NCBI GenBank assembly: GCA_002838945.1
Contig: PGXB01000003.1
Coordinates: 62,001-126,000 of the forward strand
Origin: a candidate division Zixibacteria bacterium HGW-Zixibacteria-1
GTDB taxonomy: Bacteria; Zixibacteria; MSB-5A5; GN15; PGXB01
Length of the DNA stretch: 64,000 bases
Direction: 5' to 3'
Shown: one piece after another, positions 8,118 to 22,225 of the stretch
Position numbering within the stretch: the stretch's first letter is position 1
How the letters are laid out: each line of letters starts with the position of its first letter
The notes under the pieces: model-generated
Seen by the model: only the letters and a program-made list of their open reading frames with translations
Database searches by the model: none
What the model was told of the DNA's origin: nothing
Made by a program: the position numbers and the translations under genes

Positions 8118-9866
8118 ATGATGACTATAAATAAATATCCAATTATCATAATATCATTGATATTGTTATCCCTTAATCTGCAGGCCGCGGAGAATTATAA
8201 GAAGTTCGACCTGCCGCTCGATCTGATAAATTATATGGAGATTTCATTGGAAGGCAAGACCGCCGTCATGACTGTTTTTGCCGGTGATTCATCACAATCA
8301 TTCAGGATGGAATCGCTGGAAGACAACCGATCCTATCACGAAATCAGCTATCAGGGATCGGTCGTACTCAACAACGAGGGTTTTATGTCGTCGGGCGCCG
8401 GTTACCCGTTTGATTTAATCGATAAAACGGATGTTGTTTTTGACAACAAAAAAACACGCATACTCTTTTATCAAAAGGACCCGGAGTCGGATGTCAAATT
8501 CCGCAGCAGGAAGAAGAACAATATCTCGATTTTCAATGACATCAATATTGCCGGCGGCGATTTCATCCGGGGCTCGGTAGTCTCATTCTGGGCCGATATC
8601 GTGATCAACGGCGAAGTGAACGAGGATGTCATCGCTGTTTACGGAGATATTTCCGTCGGTCAGCAGGCAGTCATCCGCGGAGACGTGATCTCCATAGACG
8701 GTAAGGTCGATATTGCCAAGGGCGCTACTGTTTACGGCCGGGTGCAGGCATCCGGCGGAAAAAAGAAATTTCAGTTTGACCGCTGGACCCGCTGGCACAA
8801 TAAGGAAAAGGATTTTTCCACAATCATAAGATTTTATTACGATCGGGTGGACGGGGCCACGCCGCTATTGGGAGTGCAATTTACCGATGAGGATTCGCTC
8901 CTGCCTAATGTGGAAATATACTCCGGGTATGCGTTTTCGTCGGAAGAATGGCGGTATTATGTCGGTTTGGAGCAATCGTTCTGGCTGAAGCACCCGATTA
9001 CCCTTGGCGGGTCTTTTTACCGGAAGCTGGCGACCCAGGATGACTGGCTGATGCAACGAAATGATAATACGGTTTTTGCGCTGCTGGCCACCGAGGATTA
9101 CCGCGATTACTATGAGGCCGAAGGTGGTTATATTTTTGGGCGTTTTACTCCCCTGAGTTATTTCAATGTGGAAATTGGCACGTTGGTGGAAAAATACACC
9201 TGGCTGGATGCACATACCGATCTCTGGTCAATGTTCGGCGGTTCGAAGGCATTCGGAAGTAATTTTGGCAGTGTTCCGGCGGCAGAGCGCGCGAGCGGGA
9301 TCGAGGCCCTGGATGGAGCCGAAATGGCCTCCATCATATTGAAAAGTGATCTCGATAACAGCGACCGGGAAGCGCGATTCGGGCAGTCTTTCTGGATGGG
9401 AACGGCGGAGCTCGAATGGCTTCCGGACGGCTGGAATGATGATTTCGATTTCACTCGCTATTTCGTCCGGGCCGGCCGGTTTCAAAGCCTGAATGAATAC
9501 AGCGGCTTTTATATTAAAGCGGGCTATGGCGGGTCGGACGGCCTGCTGCCCCTGCACCGGCGCTATTTTCTGGGCGGCCTTGAGACGCTTCTGGGATACA
9601 GGCATAAGGAATATAGCGGGCAGGAATTCTGGCTGGGCAATGTCGAATACAGACTTACTTTTCCAAAAACCGATATTACCGGGTTGCTTCTTTACAATGC
9701 GGGCCAAATTTCGGAAGAGGCCGGAAAGCTTGGAGACGCGGAGGTCAAGCAGTCGATCGGCATCGGGGTTTCGTTCGAGGAAAGTCTCCGACTGGATCTT
9801 TCCCGGCGCCTGGACCGCTCTGATTCTTCATTTCAAATATATGTCCGGCTTGGAATTAACTTCTAG
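8118..9866 (+). CDS. Outer-membrane beta-barrel protein with bactofilin-like repeat region
   Basis: Exported by a signal peptide (residues 1-24, ending LQAA). After a short beta domain, about residues 140-215 form a right-handed beta-helix-like stretch (GDFIRGSVVSFWADIVINGE, then alternating GDV/GDI/GKV turns), the pattern of polymer-forming bactofilin domains. Residues 230-582 are amphipathic strands with many Tyr/Trp residues. The barrel contains an Omp85/D15-like segment (FLGGLETLLGYRHKEY, then LGNVEYRLTF) and ends in phenylalanine (LGINF), the classic outer-membrane signal. GGAGG stands 2 nt before ATG 8118 and 5 nt before ATG 8121, so the second ATG may be the true start. It follows the Nudix gene by 63 bp and is probably a separate function. 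Confidence 0.8.
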   Translation: MMTINKYPIIIISLILLSLNLQAAENYKKFDLPLDLINYMEISLEGKTAVMTVFAGDSSQSFRMESLEDNRSYHEISYQGSVVLNNEGFMSSGAGYPFDLIDKTDVVFDNKKTRILFYQKDPESDVKFRSRKKNNISIFNDINIAGGDFIRGSVVSFWADIVINGEVNEDVIAVYGDISVGQQAVIRGDVISIDGKVDIAKGATVYGRVQASGGKKKFQFDRWTRWHNKEKDFSTIIRFYYDRVDGATPLLGVQFTDEDSLLPNVEIYSGYAFSSEEWRYYVGLEQSFWLKHPITLGGSFYRKLATQDDWLMQRNDNTVFALLATEDYRDYYEAEGGYIFGRFTPLSYFNVEIGTLVEKYTWLDAHTDLWSMFGGSKAFGSNFGSVPAAERASGIEALDGAEMASIILKSDLDNSDREARFGQSFWMGTAELEWLPDGWNDDFDFTRYFVRAGRFQSLNEYSGFYIKAGYGGSDGLLPLHRRYFLGGLETLLGYRHKEYSGQEFWLGNVEYRLTFPKTDITGLLLYNAGQISEEAGKLGDAEVKQSIGIGVSFEESLRLDLSRRLDRSDSSFQIYVRLGINF

Positions 9867-10058: not shown

Positions 10059-11885
10059 ATGGCAAGTAATGATGAAAAACAGGTTGATTTAACAGCCAGT
10101 TTATTCTTTGAAGAAGCCCAGGATGATTACGACGCCGACACCGAGAAGATAAAATTATCCCAGGCCAATGATGTTCTGGCCGAGATGGAAGCGGCGCTCG
10201 ACGAAATCGCGGATGACAACCCGCGCATCGGTGCCGCTGACGAGACCGGATCCGGGTCAAATGACGATTTGAGAGCGGTCCTGCAGGTTTCCCTCGCGAT
10301 AAACTCTTCGCTGGTTCTGGAAGATATCCTGCAAATCGTTATGAAAAAGGCCATCGAACTTCTCTCAGCGGAGAGAGGCTTTATTATGCTGCTTGATGAT
10401 GGCGGCAGGCTGCAATTCAAAACAGCCTATAATTTATGCAAGGAAGAGATGACCGACAATGATTTCAAAATATCCAATTCGATTGCCAATGATGTGGCGC
10501 AATCCGGTAAATCGGTTTATACTTCCGATGCGCTTTCAGACGAGCGGTATGCCAACCAGAAATCGGTCGTAGAGCTTCATCTGCGGTCGATCATGTGTGT
10601 CCCGCTGAAAATCAAGAATAAAGTCATCGGCATCATTTATCTCGACAACTCATCCCAGGCAAAGCTGTTTCTTAAATCGGATTTATACCTGTTTGAAATG
10701 CTGGCTCAACAGGCGGCCCATGCCATTCATAACGCCACTTTGTATTATCAGCTTCTGGATTTGAAGAAATTCAATGAAAAGGTCGTAAACAACTCCCCGG
10801 TCGGAGTTATTGTTATAAATGCAAGATATGAACTGGTGTCGATTAACGATGCCGCCCTCGCGGTACTCGACAAGAACAAAGAGTGTATCCGGCTGTTCAA
10901 TGCCAACGATCTGCCGACCAAATTTATTGAGCTGGTTCCCAAAGAGGAAGTCTCCAAGCTCCAGAAAATGATCAACACTGCGCTGGAGACCAAGCAGACC
11001 ATCGAGGAAGCACGGTACTTCCACAATACCGGCTACAGTGAGAAGGTTCTTTCGATTAAGATTTCGCCAATCAGCAAGATTCCGAACGGCGGAGACGGTT
11101 TGATTCTGGTGATCGAAGACATTACCGAAAAGATTATCATGGAAAAATATGTCATCCTGTCGGAAAAACTTGTCGCCCGGGGTGAGATGGCGGCGTCAAT
11201 CGGCCACGAACTTAACAATTACCTGGCCATCATTGCCAACAATGCGGAACTCCTGTCATACAACCTTGAAAAGGGCCGCGATGAGAAGGCGCACGAGAAC
11301 TCGAAGCAGATCGTTGAAAATATTTCCAAGATGAAACGCTTCACCGACGGCTTGATGGACTTCTCCAAAATGGAGACGGAAATAATCAGCTACGAGATTC
11401 GGCGACTGATCGAGGAACTTTTATTCTCATTGAAAGCGCAGGCACGATTCAAAAATATCGCGATTAATGTCGACTTCGACGGGGAAATACCCAGTGTCGA
11501 AATGGATGTCGGTCAATTACAGCAGGTATTGATGAATCTTTTGAACAATGCGGCCGATGCCCTGGATCAAAAATATAATCAGGAAAAGGCCAAAGGTAAC
11601 AACAAGTTCAAGCAGGAAATAGATATTAAAGTCTCGCACGACCCCGGGACTTCTACTATTAATATTTCGCTGTCCGATAATGGTTGCGGCATCTCACAGC
11701 AGTATATGTCAAAGATATTCCAACTGCACTTCACGACGAAGAAATCGGGACACGGACTCGGCCTGGCCAATTGCAAAAAGATTATAAACAATCACAACGG
11801 GGAAATAACACTGTCCTCCAAAGAAGGGTCGGGCACCACATTTAATATTACCCTGCCGGAAAAGCAGCTAAGAGCAGTCAAGTAA
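10059..11885 (+). CDS. Cytoplasmic sensor histidine kinase, GAF-PAS-HisKA-HATPase
   Basis: Phosphorelay kinase of 608 aa without membrane segments. An acidic N-terminus (1-70) precedes a GAF domain (about 85-230) and a PAS domain (about 240-355). The HisKA dimerisation segment has the H box ASIGHELNNYLAI with phospho-acceptor H383. The ATPase domain has an N box (LMNLLNNAADALD, about 491-503), a G1 box (SDNGCGI, about 539-545) and a GHGLGLA G2 loop (564-570). The H box with HELNN resembles NtrB-like and hybrid kinases. No response regulator is encoded nearby. The stop TAA directly abuts the ATG of the next gene, a Ser/Thr kinase with TPRs, so the two are surely co-transcribed and perhaps act in one pathway. 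The start ATG 10059 has only a weak GGAA/GAG upstream. Confidence 0.92.
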   Translation: MASNDEKQVDLTASLFFEEAQDDYDADTEKIKLSQANDVLAEMEAALDEIADDNPRIGAADETGSGSNDDLRAVLQVSLAINSSLVLEDILQIVMKKAIELLSAERGFIMLLDDGGRLQFKTAYNLCKEEMTDNDFKISNSIANDVAQSGKSVYTSDALSDERYANQKSVVELHLRSIMCVPLKIKNKVIGIIYLDNSSQAKLFLKSDLYLFEMLAQQAAHAIHNATLYYQLLDLKKFNEKVVNNSPVGVIVINARYELVSINDAALAVLDKNKECIRLFNANDLPTKFIELVPKEEVSKLQKMINTALETKQTIEEARYFHNTGYSEKVLSIKISPISKIPNGGDGLILVIEDITEKIIMEKYVILSEKLVARGEMAASIGHELNNYLAIIANNAELLSYNLEKGRDEKAHENSKQIVENISKMKRFTDGLMDFSKMETEIISYEIRRLIEELLFSLKAQARFKNIAINVDFDGEIPSVEMDVGQLQQVLMNLLNNAADALDQKYNQEKAKGNNKFKQEIDIKVSHDPGTSTINISLSDNGCGISQQYMSKIFQLHFTTKKSGHGLGLANCKKIINNHNGEITLSSKEGSGTTFNITLPEKQLRAVK

Positions 11886-14800
11886 ATGTTGGAAAACAGA
11901 TTCGCACCGGGTGGATACAAAATTGAACGCTTGCTGGGAACCGGGGGAACCGCCCGGGTGTACCTCGCCCGCGGCACTCACGATAACCGCCTGACTGCAT
12001 TAAAGACCGTCATAACCTCGGACTCCGCGAATCTTGAACAATTCCGCAAACTGGCCCGCCGGGAGCTCCAATTAATCGGCAATCTCAAATATCATGGCAT
12101 CGTTAGAGTATTTGACTTCCGGGATGACCCGGATTATCCATATCTGAAACTCGAGTACTGCCCGGAAGCAACACTGGATACCCTGCCCCGCATTGAATCA
12201 ATTGATTGCTTAAAAAACCTGCTGTCATCCATTGCCATTAATCTGCACTTTCTGTATAAGGCGAGACTGTTTCACGGCGACCTCAAACCGCATAATATTT
12301 TCCTTACACATGATCTTTCGGAATATTCCGGAGACAGGCTGATATATTCAAAAATATCCGATTTTTCACTGGCCCTCAAGGCCGGTGAGAATAGATCCGA
12401 CCGGCTTGGTCTCGGCACCGTCGGCTACATGGCGCCGGAGACAATCGATTCGGGTGCGCTGGATCACAGGTCCGATATTTTCGCCTTTGGCGTAATCGCT
12501 TACAGGCTTGCTACCGGACAGCACCCCTTTATGGAAAACGAATCCGATCCGGTGAGGATTAACGGCGCTGTAAAAGAAAGCTGTCCGCCTTCTCCCTCGG
12601 AAATAATCAGGGCCATTCCCAAACCGCTGTCCGATCTAATAATGGCGATGCTTGAAAAGGACCCGGGCGGGCGCCCATCGGATGGTTTCGAAATATGCAG
12701 GAAACTGGAATCAATCGACTGCCAATATCCCTATCGTAAAGCGATTCGCCCAAAAAATATTCTGGAATTGATGCCGGATTCTTATGCCGAAAATCTTCCG
12801 GGGAATGAAATTTTCGCTTTCGCCTCACCCGTAATCAAAAGATTAACCGAACTGGCGGGTGACGATCATATTCGTCTTAGAAATGTTCTGGAATTATATT
12901 TCACGCGCGGTCTATTGAACTGGACGGACGGACGGATGGAATTATCGGCAGATTCCGATAAGATGTTTCTTCCCAAAAGACTGTTCAGACAGGATCGCGC
13001 CGATTTTCATGGTCTCCCCTATTCCCGAAAGAAAAGGATTATTCTGGCTGCTGTCTGCGGCGGGCGCAAAGAAGCGGAATCAGTGGATATAACCAATCCG
13101 GATGAAGCAGCCGATTATTTGACGGCTCCTCTTTTGAGATATGCCGCCGAAAATATTTCAAGCGCGACCTGGCGGAGATTCGCCGACAAAATCGCCGACC
13201 GGGCTTCGCTTAAGTACAAAAATTACCAAATTGCCGCACCACTGTATCTAAAGGCCGGCAATCTTGAAAAGGCTTATACTGCAACGATTGATGCTTCCAA
13301 CGAGCTGATAAATGATAACAAGTATGATACTGCTTTTGAGATACTGCGGCGTTTAAAGGAACTGTGCCGTCAGCATGGCGATATCAGGAAATTGCGGGTG
13401 GTTTTGATGCAAATCGCCGATATCGAAAAGATGATTGGGGAAACAATCAGGGCCGAAAAGAGCTACAATGAAATAATCGAACTATATAAGGACAGCCCCC
13501 CCGACAAGCTTCTGGCTGAGACCCACAAGGATCTGGGCGATCTTTATCGCATGAAACAGGATTATGAAAAAGGGCTGAAAGCGCTGCATCAGGCCGAGGA
13601 ATTATACACCGGGCTCGATGATCACCTGCAGCTATCACATACATTGAACAATATCGGCAATCTTCTGGCTATTAAGAGTCAATATAATGATGCTCTGGTA
13701 AGTTATCATAAGGCGCTGGGGATTCAGCGCCGCCTGAAGGCCGCTGTTGCAGTAGCATCCACGCTAAATAATATCGGCGGAATGTATTACTTCAAGGGCC
13801 GGTATATGCGGGCCCTGCGGGTTTTTAAGATTGCACTGAAAATTCAGCGTGAAATCGGCAACGCCGGCGAAATCGCGCGAACTCTCAACAATCTGGGCTG
13901 CGCCTATCAGGAAGTAGAGAGATTCGACGAGGCCCAGGGCTGTCTTGATGAATCCCTTCAATTGAATCGCAAAATCGGCAGTAAGAGAGAAATTTTATAT
14001 AATCTGGACAGTCTCACATCGGTCATGTTTTCGGCCGGCAATCTTAAGGATTCCATAAAACTAATTCGAGAAGGAATCGCCCTGTCCCATGAACTGTCCG
14101 ACAAACCATTGGCCGCCTACTTCACGACACATCTGGCCCGGGTTCAAAAAAGAATGGGTTATTACGGGCAGGCCCATGATAATTTCAGTAAAGCGCTGGA
14201 ACTGTTTTCCGGAATAGATGATGCTTATCAGGAATCCGGCTGCCGCGCGGGGCTGGCCGATTTATATTCCTCTCTAAATATGCCGGACAAAGCCAGAGAG
14301 AGCCTGGAAGCACTCTTGAGACTGGCCGAAACCGCCAGTGACAAAAGAACGCATATAATCCACAAAATAATGCTGGGAAGCATTGAGAAAGACATTCGAA
14401 CCATTGAAGAGGCACTGTGCGTGGCCCGCGAAATAAAAGCGACGGCCAGCATAAATCTGGCTGAAATGAAGCTGGCCGGTTTACTGATCGCGGATAAAAA
14501 TTATGAGAAGGCCGGATCGCTTCTGAATAGATTGTCATCAATTTTTGTCGAGGATCGATCAAATCTGGAAATTGCGGAATTTTACGGAATATATGGAGAG
14601 TATTATAAGGGCCTGGGGGATGCTAAACAGGCTATGACTTATTATGAGAAGTCTTTGCGGCTGTCGTCAGGTCATTCATTGAAACCAGAGATGATCGACG
14701 CCCTGGGTCGGATTGGGGCAATATTAATAACTAATAAGGAATATGAGGCCGGTTACCGAAATTATCGTCAAGCCATTAACCTCGTAAAGGCAATTGCCGA

Positions 14801-14933
14801 AGATATTAAGGATGAGAATATCAGGACAAGATTCTTGTCCGGAGAGAAGATCGCCTCAATGGCAGGAGAGGTCAAAAAGCTCGGCCAGATTCTGGCCCAA
14901 ACGAAAAGGGCAGGCTTAAAAAGCCTGCCCTAA
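11886..14933 (+). CDS. Ser/Thr protein kinase with long TPR array
   Basis: A cytoplasmic 1015-aa protein. Residues about 10-285 form a PknB-type kinase: glycine loop LLGTGGTARVY, ALK lysine, helix-C glutamate (RREL), catalytic loop HGDLKPHN, DFS in place of DFG, and APE. The Asp, Lys and Asn needed for catalysis remain, but HGD instead of HRD makes it a non-RD kinase, probably not controlled by activation-loop phosphorylation. A helical spacer follows, then about a dozen tetratricopeptide repeats (about 440-990; for example TLNNIGNLL and TLNNIGGMYY), of the kinesin-light-chain type found in peptide-binding regulators. It starts immediately after the histidine kinase stop. The last codons form part of a perfect 10-bp inverted repeat. 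Confidence 0.93.
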   Translation: MLENRFAPGGYKIERLLGTGGTARVYLARGTHDNRLTALKTVITSDSANLEQFRKLARRELQLIGNLKYHGIVRVFDFRDDPDYPYLKLEYCPEATLDTLPRIESIDCLKNLLSSIAINLHFLYKARLFHGDLKPHNIFLTHDLSEYSGDRLIYSKISDFSLALKAGENRSDRLGLGTVGYMAPETIDSGALDHRSDIFAFGVIAYRLATGQHPFMENESDPVRINGAVKESCPPSPSEIIRAIPKPLSDLIMAMLEKDPGGRPSDGFEICRKLESIDCQYPYRKAIRPKNILELMPDSYAENLPGNEIFAFASPVIKRLTELAGDDHIRLRNVLELYFTRGLLNWTDGRMELSADSDKMFLPKRLFRQDRADFHGLPYSRKKRIILAAVCGGRKEAESVDITNPDEAADYLTAPLLRYAAENISSATWRRFADKIADRASLKYKNYQIAAPLYLKAGNLEKAYTATIDASNELINDNKYDTAFEILRRLKELCRQHGDIRKLRVVLMQIADIEKMIGETIRAEKSYNEIIELYKDSPPDKLLAETHKDLGDLYRMKQDYEKGLKALHQAEELYTGLDDHLQLSHTLNNIGNLLAIKSQYNDALVSYHKALGIQRRLKAAVAVASTLNNIGGMYYFKGRYMRALRVFKIALKIQREIGNAGEIARTLNNLGCAYQEVERFDEAQGCLDESLQLNRKIGSKREILYNLDSLTSVMFSAGNLKDSIKLIREGIALSHELSDKPLAAYFTTHLARVQKRMGYYGQAHDNFSKALELFSGIDDAYQESGCRAGLADLYSSLNMPDKARESLEALLRLAETASDKRTHIIHKIMLGSIEKDIRTIEEALCVAREIKATASINLAEMKLAGLLIADKNYEKAGSLLNRLSSIFVEDRSNLEIAEFYGIYGEYYKGLGDAKQAMTYYEKSLRLSSGHSLKPEMIDALGRIGAILITNKEYEAGYRNYRQAINLVKAIAEDIKDENIRTRFLSGEKIASMAGEVKKLGQILAQTKRAGLKSLP
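14908..14930 (-). terminator. Intrinsic terminator of the 21-codon minus-strand ORF, inside the kinase 3-prime end
   Basis: Perfect 10-bp inverted repeat GGGCAGGCTT/AAGCCTGCCC with a 3-nt loop. On the minus strand it is followed by TTTTCGTTT, a good terminator tail; on the plus strand only by TAATTC. It begins 21 bp past the stop of the small ORF at 14952-15017 and lies wholly within the last codons of the plus-strand kinase gene. Confidence 0.75.
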
Positions 14934-14951
14934 TTCAACTGTCAAAGGAGC

Positions 14952-15017
14952 TTATTGTCCACCCAGGCTTATCGCAGGGGCGATCTTCTCCTCAAGTTTC
15001 TCGATGGTAAGTTTCAT
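14952..15017 (-). CDS. Putative 21-aa peptide gene convergent to the TPR kinase
   Basis: Minus-strand ORF of 21 codons starting ATG at 15017 and stopping TAA at 14952-14954. The peptide begins MKLTIEKLEEKIAP and ends SLGGQ: a charged amphipathic helix, then a small neutral tail. A full Shine-Dalgarno sequence, AAAGGAGGT, sits 6 nt before the ATG, the strongest in the window. Downstream is a 10-bp terminator with a T tail on the same strand (14908-14930). A TATTATAAA stretch at 15072-15080 could be the -10 element; no good -35 is visible. There is no signal peptide. The LExKIAP core vaguely recalls LExRxxP motifs near the N-termini of some planctomycete proteins (from memory). The ribosome-binding and terminator evidence is strong for so short a frame; the function is unknown. 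Confidence 0.6.
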   Translation of the reverse strand: MKLTIEKLEEKIAPAISLGGQ

Positions 15018-15052
15018 TCACCCACCTCCTTTGAAGTTGCTGTTTACAAATT

Positions 15053-15076
15053 CCCGGTAAATCCGGGCTTTTTTAT
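15053..15076 (+). terminator. Intrinsic terminator of the histidine kinase/Ser-Thr kinase operon
   Basis: CCCGG, loop TAAAT, CCGGG, then CTTTTTTAT on the plus strand. It ends the plus-strand kinase operon 120 bp past its stop. The hairpin lies in the putative leader of the minus-strand 21-codon ORF, so both transcription units carry terminators on either side of that small gene. Confidence 0.7.
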
Positions 15077-19900: not shown

Positions 19901-22225
19901 TCAGCACCAGGGTGCGGGGCCGTTTTTATATAGATAATTTATCAGATACGCTATGTCCAACAGATTGATCGCGCCGGAACCGTCAGTATCGCCCGCATCA
20001 GAATACGCCATCGGCTCGCCGTTCTTATACAGATAGTCGATCATATACACCGCATCCAAAAGATTGACCGCGCCGTCATTCGTGGCATCACCGCAAACGT
20101 AGTCGATCCCGGCATTGAGAATAAAAAAGCCATAGGCGTCGGCCACATAAATATTCTGCCCATCGGTCGCGATCCCGTTGACACATTCGCCCGGCGTCTC
20201 ATAGACCCCCGCCAGCGACATATTCGACGGGTTGGAGATATCCACAATCTTGACCTCACAGCCGATACAGGTCCCGTTGGCAATATAGGCATATTTACCG
20301 TATAAAGCGATATCGCACGGCACGTCGCAAAGCTCATCAAAGATACCCACCGAAACCGGGTGCGCCGGATCGGAGATATCGACGACCCGCATACCACAGC
20401 CGGCATCGGCCAGATAGGCATAATCACCGCGAACCTTCACCTCCCGAACCATCCCGCTGGTGTAGAGCTTCTCCCCCGCCGGCACCGGATTGGCCGGGTC
20501 GGTGATATTTATGATAACCAGGCCGGTTCGGTCGCCCAGATAAGCATAGTCACCGGCAACATCGATACTATACGCCTCATGGCCGCCAAAATAAATGTCG
20601 TTATAATAACCCACCCGGGTGATATTATACGGGTCGGAGATGTCGCAAATCTGCAGACCCGAAGTATCCGCCGCCGCAAAGGCATAATCGCCCTTGACAG
20701 AGACATCCCAGACATATCCGGGAGCGCGATAATTCGATATTATATGTGGATTGGAAGGATCAGTGATATCACAAATTCTGAAACCATTATAGGTCTGTGC
20801 GACGTAGGCATAATTTCCCTGAACGGCCAGATCAACAATATTTGAGATACCATCATTCCCCATAACAACGGGATTAGCCGGATCACTTATGTCAAGAACC
20901 GTTAAACCGGCTCCCTCCACCGATACATAGGCATAATTATCCTGTAACTCAACATCTATCAAATAGCCGACCAAACCATTTCGATCGTTCTTGCCGAAAT
21001 TTATGAAATCTATGATTGAGGCATCCTCCGGTTGGGCAATATCCGCCACCCACACCCCCGAATAACCGCCCGTAATATAGGCATAGTCGCCAGAGATATC
21101 CATACCCCAGGAGTCACCGTTATTAATAATCCAACCAAGTTTGGTCGGGTTAAGGGGATCAGAAATATCAATAATATGCACTGTTGGATATCCCCCCATC
21201 GTCACATACGCTACATTATCCTTAATTTCCACATCCCACGGATCATCATAGTAAATATCCTGATTGTAAAAGGCAACCGCCGTCGGGTGATATACATCCG
21301 AGATGTCGACCGTTAATAATCCGGCGCATCCGAGGCCGTTATAGCGGCTGACAAAGGCATAATTGCCCACAACGCCAACATCTGTAGCAAAACAATCCGT
21401 CGCAATGCTCCCCATCCGCGTAGGATAACTGGCATAATGAACATCGAGAGTCGTCATACTCTCATAGGCTTCATCTATCGCAAAAGCGGTATCCCCGCGA
21501 ATTACTATATTCCGCGAGTCATGCAATAAATAATTCCCCAGCGGTATCATGTCATTATAATAAAAGGCATTGAAGATATACAGGCCCGAATCCTGGGCGC
21601 ACAAATAGCCCTGGTTCCCGTCGATCTTTACTGTCCAGGCGTTGCGGCCGGCATATAGACTGTCGAACAACTCGATATTATAGGGATCGCTGATATCATA
21701 CTTCCATAAGGCTTCATCGCGGCGCCCGGGATCCGCCATGAACAGGTAGCCGTTGGCAATATCGATACCCCCCGTACCCTTCTGCATATAATATCGCGAC
21801 AGCAATTGAGGATCAGCCGGATTGCTGACATCGAACAGAGCCAGCCCCGGCCCGAAACAGACGTAGGCGACATCGTTCTCCACCCGGATATCATGCGCGA
21901 ATGTCCACAAGGCGCTTCCCAGATATTCCGGCGTTAAGGCATAATCCGACTTATTCGTCGGCAACTGATAATTATTGGACTGGAAGAGGTCATTGAGGGT
22001 GTAATTTATATTATTGTCCTCCTCCCAGAGCGCCGGATAAATCCGGTCGGCGATACGAACATAATTCTGTGTTTCGGTGGTGTCGATCGAGGTGACTATT
22101 CTTGACAGCGCCGACAAGCTGTCATAACCGAGTGGTTCCGTATCGGAACCGGTAGCGCCGGCAGCGGCCAGACAGAATAATAAAGCAGTCAGGCCCGCCG
22201 CCCTGAGCTTCGCTGATACGGCCAT
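19901..22225 (-). CDS. Secreted LVIVD-repeat beta-propeller protein with C-terminal dockerin
   Basis: Exported protein of 774 aa with an N-terminal signal (to about residue 26). Some 13-14 tandem units of about 44-50 residues follow the pattern YAYV...GLxIxDISDPxNPxxxG, the LVIVD repeat, which suggests two seven-bladed propellers. The last 70 residues are a type I dockerin: two calcium-loop repeats, DATNDGAVNLLDAVYMIDYL and DTDGSGAINLLDIAYLINYL, each followed by YKNG. Dockerins bind cohesin domains, and the next gene on the same strand has cohesin-like units, so the two may assemble at the cell surface; that is inference. A consensus-like promoter lies at 22341-22369. The start ATG 22225 follows GGGGGAG closely. 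Confidence 0.88.
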   Translation of the reverse strand: MAVSAKLRAAGLTALLFCLAAAGATGSDTEPLGYDSLSALSRIVTSIDTTETQNYVRIADRIYPALWEEDNNINYTLNDLFQSNNYQLPTNKSDYALTPEYLGSALWTFAHDIRVENDVAYVCFGPGLALFDVSNPADPQLLSRYYMQKGTGGIDIANGYLFMADPGRRDEALWKYDISDPYNIELFDSLYAGRNAWTVKIDGNQGYLCAQDSGLYIFNAFYYNDMIPLGNYLLHDSRNIVIRGDTAFAIDEAYESMTTLDVHYASYPTRMGSIATDCFATDVGVVGNYAFVSRYNGLGCAGLLTVDISDVYHPTAVAFYNQDIYYDDPWDVEIKDNVAYVTMGGYPTVHIIDISDPLNPTKLGWIINNGDSWGMDISGDYAYITGGYSGVWVADIAQPEDASIIDFINFGKNDRNGLVGYLIDVELQDNYAYVSVEGAGLTVLDISDPANPVVMGNDGISNIVDLAVQGNYAYVAQTYNGFRICDITDPSNPHIISNYRAPGYVWDVSVKGDYAFAAADTSGLQICDISDPYNITRVGYYNDIYFGGHEAYSIDVAGDYAYLGDRTGLVIINITDPANPVPAGEKLYTSGMVREVKVRGDYAYLADAGCGMRVVDISDPAHPVSVGIFDELCDVPCDIALYGKYAYIANGTCIGCEVKIVDISNPSNMSLAGVYETPGECVNGIATDGQNIYVADAYGFFILNAGIDYVCGDATNDGAVNLLDAVYMIDYLYKNGEPMAYSDAGDTDGSGAINLLDIAYLINYLYKNGPAPWC

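Follow-up and report, generated by a model that had tools for sequence, protein, structure and literature searches.

The 21-codon gene and its expression signals

The window, a stretch of 64,000 nucleotides of Zixibacteria DNA, carries on its minus strand a gene of 21 sense codons plus TAA (14952..15017) whose product is MKLTIEKLEEKIAPAISLGGQ. The ATG lies at 15017, the TAA occupies 14954..14952, and a Shine-Dalgarno sequence, AAAGGAGGT (15024..15032, minus strand), precedes the ATG with a 6-nt spacer (GGGTGA). Among the start codons of all frames of at least 20 aa in the window, this was the sole 10/10 match to AAAGGAGGTG, the runner-up reaching 9/10; the initial annotation, which had called it the best in the window, was therefore correct. 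A strong Shine-Dalgarno is kept in nearly all copies of the gene. Transcription would end at an intrinsic terminator on the same strand (14907..14931), a hairpin running from 14931 to 14907 with a TTTT tail, which overlaps the stop codon of a convergent kinase gene. A perfect terminator with a T tail had been noted previously, but with 10 base pairs where we count 11. Upstream, a hairpin of sequence CCCGG-ATTTA-CCGGG (15053..15067, minus strand) is proposed to stabilise the mRNA 5′ end. At this position 27 of 63 relatives have a hairpin of at least 6 bp, against 3.8 expected, and a terminator-like hairpin follows the stop codon within 97 nt in 48 of the 63 (2.6 expected). A second terminator-like hairpin in the window, GGCCAGAATCTGGCC followed by GAGCTTTTTG (14883-14897, minus strand), lies past the peptide terminator and within the kinase coding region.

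A profile of the peptide matched 104 of 132 Zixibacteria genomes, mostly in single copy, and the same profile detected the gene throughout the order. Too small for annotation pipelines, the gene is near-core in Zixibacteria. These genomes are mostly draft MAGs, and counts drawn from them are non-independent observations. NCBIfam, Pfam and PHROGs contained no family covering the peptide, and an all-species search with a strict eight-residue pattern returned close relatives only. Within the window's family, aligned DNA of the peptide region is 75-87% identical and the frame is intact in 12 genomes, and third codon positions account for 235 of the 323 nucleotide differences between pairs of sequences in the conserved block. 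The ratio pN/pS was 0.11 for these 12 genomes and 0.25 across the 51 other sequences compared. The gene is thus real, as initially proposed, being conserved in frame and under selection at the protein level, well past anything that chance would give. Its mostly single-copy occurrence and selected frame rule out a pseudogene fragment or a repeat free of coding constraint, and a hydrophobic type I toxin was rejected because the peptide has no hydrophobic segment. One genome (G004, contig 48; L120:364-531) encodes a second paralogue, MVKLTIERLEERIAPDNTWASLTGFHNGISLGGLS, in which an extra stretch separates the leader from GISLGG; it adjoins a gene resembling REP-associated transposases (L120 687-1283).

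Only in the window's family is the Shine-Dalgarno predicted to be sequestered in a 14-bp helix, whose 5′ arm CAACTTCAAAGGAG (15026..15039, minus strand) pairs with a 3′ arm past the stop codon, CTCCTTTGACAGTTG (14936..14950, minus strand). In this helix 97% of cells are paired, with one-sided G-U changes only. The structure as a whole is paired in 94.7% of cells across 10 genomes, compared with 31-59% in slid controls; the fold z-score is -5.25. Predictions leave the Shine-Dalgarno unpaired with a probability of 0.20 in the window's family versus 0.41 elsewhere, and the folding suggests controlled translation of the peptide in that family. The z-score and the retention of the helix in 10 genomes would also suit a structured regulatory RNA as the functional product, with the short frame incidental. 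We find this scarcely credible: the peptide is phylum-wide whereas the helix is confined to one family, third-position bias and low pN/pS point to a coding function, the helix shows no compensatory double changes, and Rfam gave no match at the gathering threshold (of the weak hits, the best extends across the terminator). Coding constraint had already largely refuted this alternative and, together with the narrow range of the helix, led us to reject a main function as structured RNA or riboswitch. The most fitting reading of the helix is control of translation within the family.

The convergent kinase and the RRE-M50-HlyD protein

Facing the peptide gene on the plus strand is a gene for a Ser/Thr kinase of 1015 aa with about 14 TPRs (11886..14933), directly preceded by a GAF-PAS histidine kinase gene (10059..11885, plus strand) whose position is kept across the order. 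In 83 of the 104 genomes no more than 1.5 kb separates the peptide gene from the genome's best match to the TPR kinase; the two are convergent in every one of these 83, with a median gap of 62 nt. This arrangement persists at kinase identities down to 22-30%; of the 21 exceptions, several are contig ends, masked sequence or kinases under the strict threshold. The window's kinase has the catalytic HGDLKPxN and DFS motifs, and its Asn residues 589, 629, 669 and 706 are shared by every one of the nine sequences in alignment A5. A single-chain model places the TPRs with a pLDDT of about 92. By both sequence and fold, their closest solved relatives are the TPRs of LGN/Pins and kinesin light chain, which bind linear peptides. 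Since many TPR proteins bind linear peptides, this modelled likeness is only permissive evidence. The initial annotation had linked the peptide to the TPR kinase: the adjacency is no accident of one genome, but that the peptide binds the TPR array is still speculative. By its gene position, the kinase is a plausible receptor or regulator of the peptide. Two further conserved families occur nearby. At 8118-9866, a gene with weak bactofilin and Omp85 matches belongs to a family (F39) conserved upstream of the HK-kinase operon at many Zixibacteria loci, and at 19901-22225 an LVIVD-like repeat protein with terminal dockerin-like repeats represents a family (F8) that recurs near several of the loci compared.

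The second partner, found in 101 of the 132 genomes, is a protein of 770 aa that joins an RRE/PqqD-like domain at its N-terminus to an M50 site-2 protease and, at the C-terminus, a HlyD adaptor. Where it is encoded close to the peptide (59 of the 104 peptide genomes), its gene is always directly upstream, on the same strand and within about 1 kb, as at loci L121 and L157. Both peptide and protease are present in 97 genomes, the peptide only in 7, the protease only in 4 and neither in 24 (Fisher 3e-16, taking the 132 genomes as if independent and complete). In the window's genome, the protease gene (G000:C3:50327-52639) lies about 9.4 kb before the window start and some 24 kb from the peptide; in this family it has moved away. 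No relative of the protease was found in phages.

The protease active site is intact, with HExxH and NPxxxxDG present in all 16 aligned proteins (HEFAH and NPLLRYDGY in the window's genome). Among named proteins, the daptide leader protease MpaP is the closest relative; tblastn found an annotated Streptomyces mpaP at 29% identity (E 1e-23). All 16 proteins match the daptide metalloprotease family NF041824 below its cut-off (best 3e-70; 203 bits for the window's genome against a cut-off of 300 bits), and 15 of 16 match the profile of the epipeptide metalloprotease LiaK/YydH. PqqD was matched weakly by 5 of 16 proteins (best E 5e-4), in the same N-terminal region that the NF041824 profile covers, while a PDB profile search of the protease returned no RRE structure. 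The RRE assignment, drawn from the weak PqqD scores and the daptide profile, is tentative.

Patterns of loss distinguish the two partners. In G043 and G044 peptide and protease are both gone, and the kinase directly borders the gene for the CLC channel. Genus g38 (locus L119), by comparison, has lost the kinase, and seven peptide copies stand beside the protease. Because g38 dispenses with the kinase yet retains both peptide and protease, and G043 and G044 keep the kinase alone, the kinase is not an obligatory partner, and the loss patterns make the link of peptide to protease tighter than that of peptide to kinase. The g38-type tandem arrays (L119:6609-8348; also in G051 and G054) hold up to seven copies, most followed by a terminator-like hairpin, and in such arrays lacking the TPR kinase the core changes from xGxSxGGQ to SRYGAE. 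Several of the seven genomes with a peptide but no detected protease are incomplete; G049 looks like a real loss. There (L207) the peptide is kept with an altered end, IGGWSNGRP in place of GGQ, as if it were decaying after loss of the protease.

The fixed neighbourhood might be thought plain inherited synteny around a peptide with an unrelated housekeeping role, given that the order of histidine kinase, kinase and CLC genes is also kept within the order. The peptide-kinase pair nevertheless persists in other families whose remaining neighbours differ, peptide and protease are lost and kept jointly, and the peptide carries a motif that independently agrees with the substrate motif of the protease's relatives (below). 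We therefore judge inherited synteny a very improbable explanation.

Proposed leader and processing, and known systems

Residues 1 to 14, MKLTIEKLEEKIAP (14976..15017, minus strand), form a proposed leader containing the putative recognition motif LEx[KR]IAP. A cut after its Pro, placed by comparison with daptides, would release AISLGGQ in the window (14955..14975, minus strand) and mostly 7-8 residues elsewhere (typically 7-9). In 90 tabulated peptides bearing the motif [E/V/K]LEx[KR]IAP, L-7, E-6, R/K-4 and P-1 occur in 90/90 and A-2 in 88/90; the pattern used to pick these peptides itself demands several of the motif residues, although L, E and P were already invariant in alignment A3. Across Zixibacteria the precursors are 21-35 aa long. 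Downstream of the motif lies a variable segment of 6-20 aa, less variable than is typical for the cores of RiPP-type precursors, with the family consensus xGxSxGGQ and at times a Gly-rich tail; peptides end in GGQ, GGE or such tails, and the core Ser is invariant in alignment A3.

Daptide precursors have the leader motif ELExMEAP, are cleaved after Pro, and are processed by MpaP, an RRE fused to an M50 peptidase (PMC10036551); the sequences that we read contain QELEVMEAP or QELEVLEAP. The Zixibacteria system resembles that of daptides in its short precursor, in an LExxxAP leader motif that closes on the Pro at which daptides are cut, in an M50 intramembrane peptidase with a predicted RRE at its N-terminus and, in some loci (here g38), in having several precursor copies. 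The two motifs agree in part, at L-7, E-6, A-2 and P-1; M-4 and E-3 of daptides are not shared. The initial annotation had reported no export signal, and no long hydrophobic stretch of the Sec type was seen when the 90 peptides were read by eye. Because LEx[KR]IAP matches the daptide leader motif and the RRE/M50/HlyD protein co-occurs, that statement is probably wrong. The peptide had also been suggested to be a leader or RiPP-like. The RiPP-like guess was a good one, but an attenuator leader was rejected as unlikely, since only the convergent kinase, and no gene on the peptide strand, lies downstream.

We favour, with a probability of roughly 70%, a minimal RiPP-like precursor whose leader is recognised and removed and whose short, Gly/Ser-rich product is exported, probably as a signal or secreted factor. 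In such a scheme the RRE/PqqD-like domain of the membrane protein would bind LEx[KR]IAP, the M50 domain would cut after the Pro, and the HlyD part would pass the product across the envelope with some outer-membrane partner. The released peptide would most likely act as a signal or a small secreted factor, whose receptor or regulator would best be sought in the convergent HK-Ser/Thr-kinase/TPR operon. We infer the early steps (leader binding, cleavage site and export) from the strong genetic linkage and the homology to daptide maturation; signalling, and binding of the peptide to the TPRs, are speculative. Among the observations that run against this reading, the protease is encoded 24 kb from the peptide in the window's own family, seven genomes have the peptide with no protease detected, and residue -4 is K or R here, whereas it is M in daptides, where that position matters.

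A different role would be that of an intracellular partner, whereby the full-length peptide binds the TPR array or is phosphorylated, acting as an inhibitor or activator that the protease removes. The strict convergent adjacency to the kinase (83/83), the invariant core Ser and the LGN/kinesin-light-chain type of the TPRs, which bind linear peptides, are all compatible with this idea. We think it unlikely, since the best conserved segment of the peptide is the daptide-like leader motif and not the core, the presence of the peptide tracks the protease more closely than the kinase, and g38 retains and multiplies the peptide with no kinase at all.

The core might, alternatively, be modified before cleavage by enzymes encoded elsewhere, yielding a daptide-like, pearlin-like or cofactor natural product. 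Precedents exist in daptides (PMC10036551) and in epipeptides and pearlins (PMC10885120), modified peptides on which RRE-M50 relatives or other M50 proteases act. Among genes that recur across the 21 loci compared, whose families are annotated in part, nothing could be recognised as a modifying enzyme, whether of the MpaB/MpaC/MpaD/MpaM type or another. The Gly/Ser-rich cores of the 90 peptides have no C-terminal Thr, no Cys and no long hydrophobic stretch, and the window's peptide lacks the Tyr of a PQQ-like scheme. A modified product consequently appears improbable, somewhat more so than an intracellular partner.

Unlike daptides, the Zixibacteria peptides have neither a hydrophobic or aliphatic core nor a C-terminal Thr, their protease has a HlyD part in addition and stays under the daptide cut-off, and a TPR kinase is a fixed neighbour. 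We reject a true daptide on the missing Thr and on the modifying enzymes going unrecognised among the recurring genes of the 21 loci. In the epipeptide system, cutting and export of a small peptide are ascribed to an M50 membrane protease (PMC10885120). The likeness to YydF/EpeX with YydH/EpeP (LiaK) lies in the protease family, whose profile 15 of the 16 Zixibacteria proteins match; leader and core differ, however, and no radical-SAM epimerase or ABC exporter was recognised at the Zixibacteria locus.

In RRNPP systems (Rap/NprR/PlcR/PrgX with Phr/Pap), as here, a peptide gene adjoins that of a TPR protein, and the proposed Zixibacteria product is of similar size. The Zixibacteria pair, by contrast, is convergent and not one operon, and the peptide has no Sec signal. 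The would-be receptor is a Ser/Thr kinase with LGN/KLC-like TPRs and not a homologue of Rap, NprR, PlcR, PrgX or AimR; the phylum is of Gram-negative type, and no re-import system was identified. By these features the system does not qualify as a daptide one, the enzymes being unrecognised and the C-terminus wrong, or as an RRNPP one, the receptor differing and a Sec signal being absent. It has the co-occurrence and adjacency with a putatively RRE-bearing protein expected of a RiPP-type precursor with an RRE-dependent protease, and its conserved leader motif gives way to a core of distinct character. Its mode of action would be that of an RRE/site-2-protease leader system, in which the partner kinase and the nearly phylum-wide distribution are new. 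In the literature searched on Zixibacteria peptides and RiPPs, PqqD-HlyD-M50 proteins and RRE-site-2 proteases, the relevant items were the daptide work, a leader-protease review and the epipeptide papers, and the present system was not described. The whole has the look of a hitherto undescribed system of secreted peptides, possibly for signalling, in which the protease-exporter probably trims and secretes the peptide, giving an uncultured phylum for which that literature describes no peptide system a secretion or signalling hypothesis.

LExR-type motifs in giant surface proteins

Homologous RRE-M50-HlyD proteins occur on plasmids of Azospirillum, Burkholderia, Kosakonia, E. coli, Methylosinus, Mesorhizobium and Variovorax (loci L217-L219 and L225-L233). 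The proteobacterial operons encode, with variations, a giant surface protein, TolC, HlyD, HlyD and the RRE-M50-HlyD protein. All six readable giant proteins have LE[PSA]R followed by hydrophobic residues near the N-terminus (ALESRQLFD, ALEARYMFD, TLEPRVLLN, ALEPRLLLS, ALEPRVVYD and SLEPRMLFD); one Azospirillum giant protein was left out because its annotated start falls inside the repeats. LE[PSA]R is the counterpart of LEx[KR]I, and it may be the recognition signal of the protease and a putative ligand of its RRE. The substrates differ greatly, being repeat proteins of thousands of residues in the one case and peptides of 21-35 aa in the other, and the giant-protein loci have separate HlyD and mostly TolC genes.

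Taking the giant-protein, daptide and Zixibacteria motifs together, three substrate types show an LExR-like motif near the N-terminus beside members of this protease family, so that one motif and one RRE-M50 protease family tie three substrate classes together. A shared code would offer a candidate mechanism for the LEPR motif of giant bacterial surface proteins. Tentatively, and with more doubt than confidence, we extend this to a phylum-wide circuit in which a precursor of 21-35 aa would be cut and exported by one RRE-protease-HlyD protein, its product of 7-9 aa would be read by the TPR superhelix of the kinase, and the LExR-type leader would be a substrate code common to RRE-M50 proteases acting on these peptides, daptides and LEPR giants. 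Some of the plasmid loci also have genes annotated as SecA or helicase.
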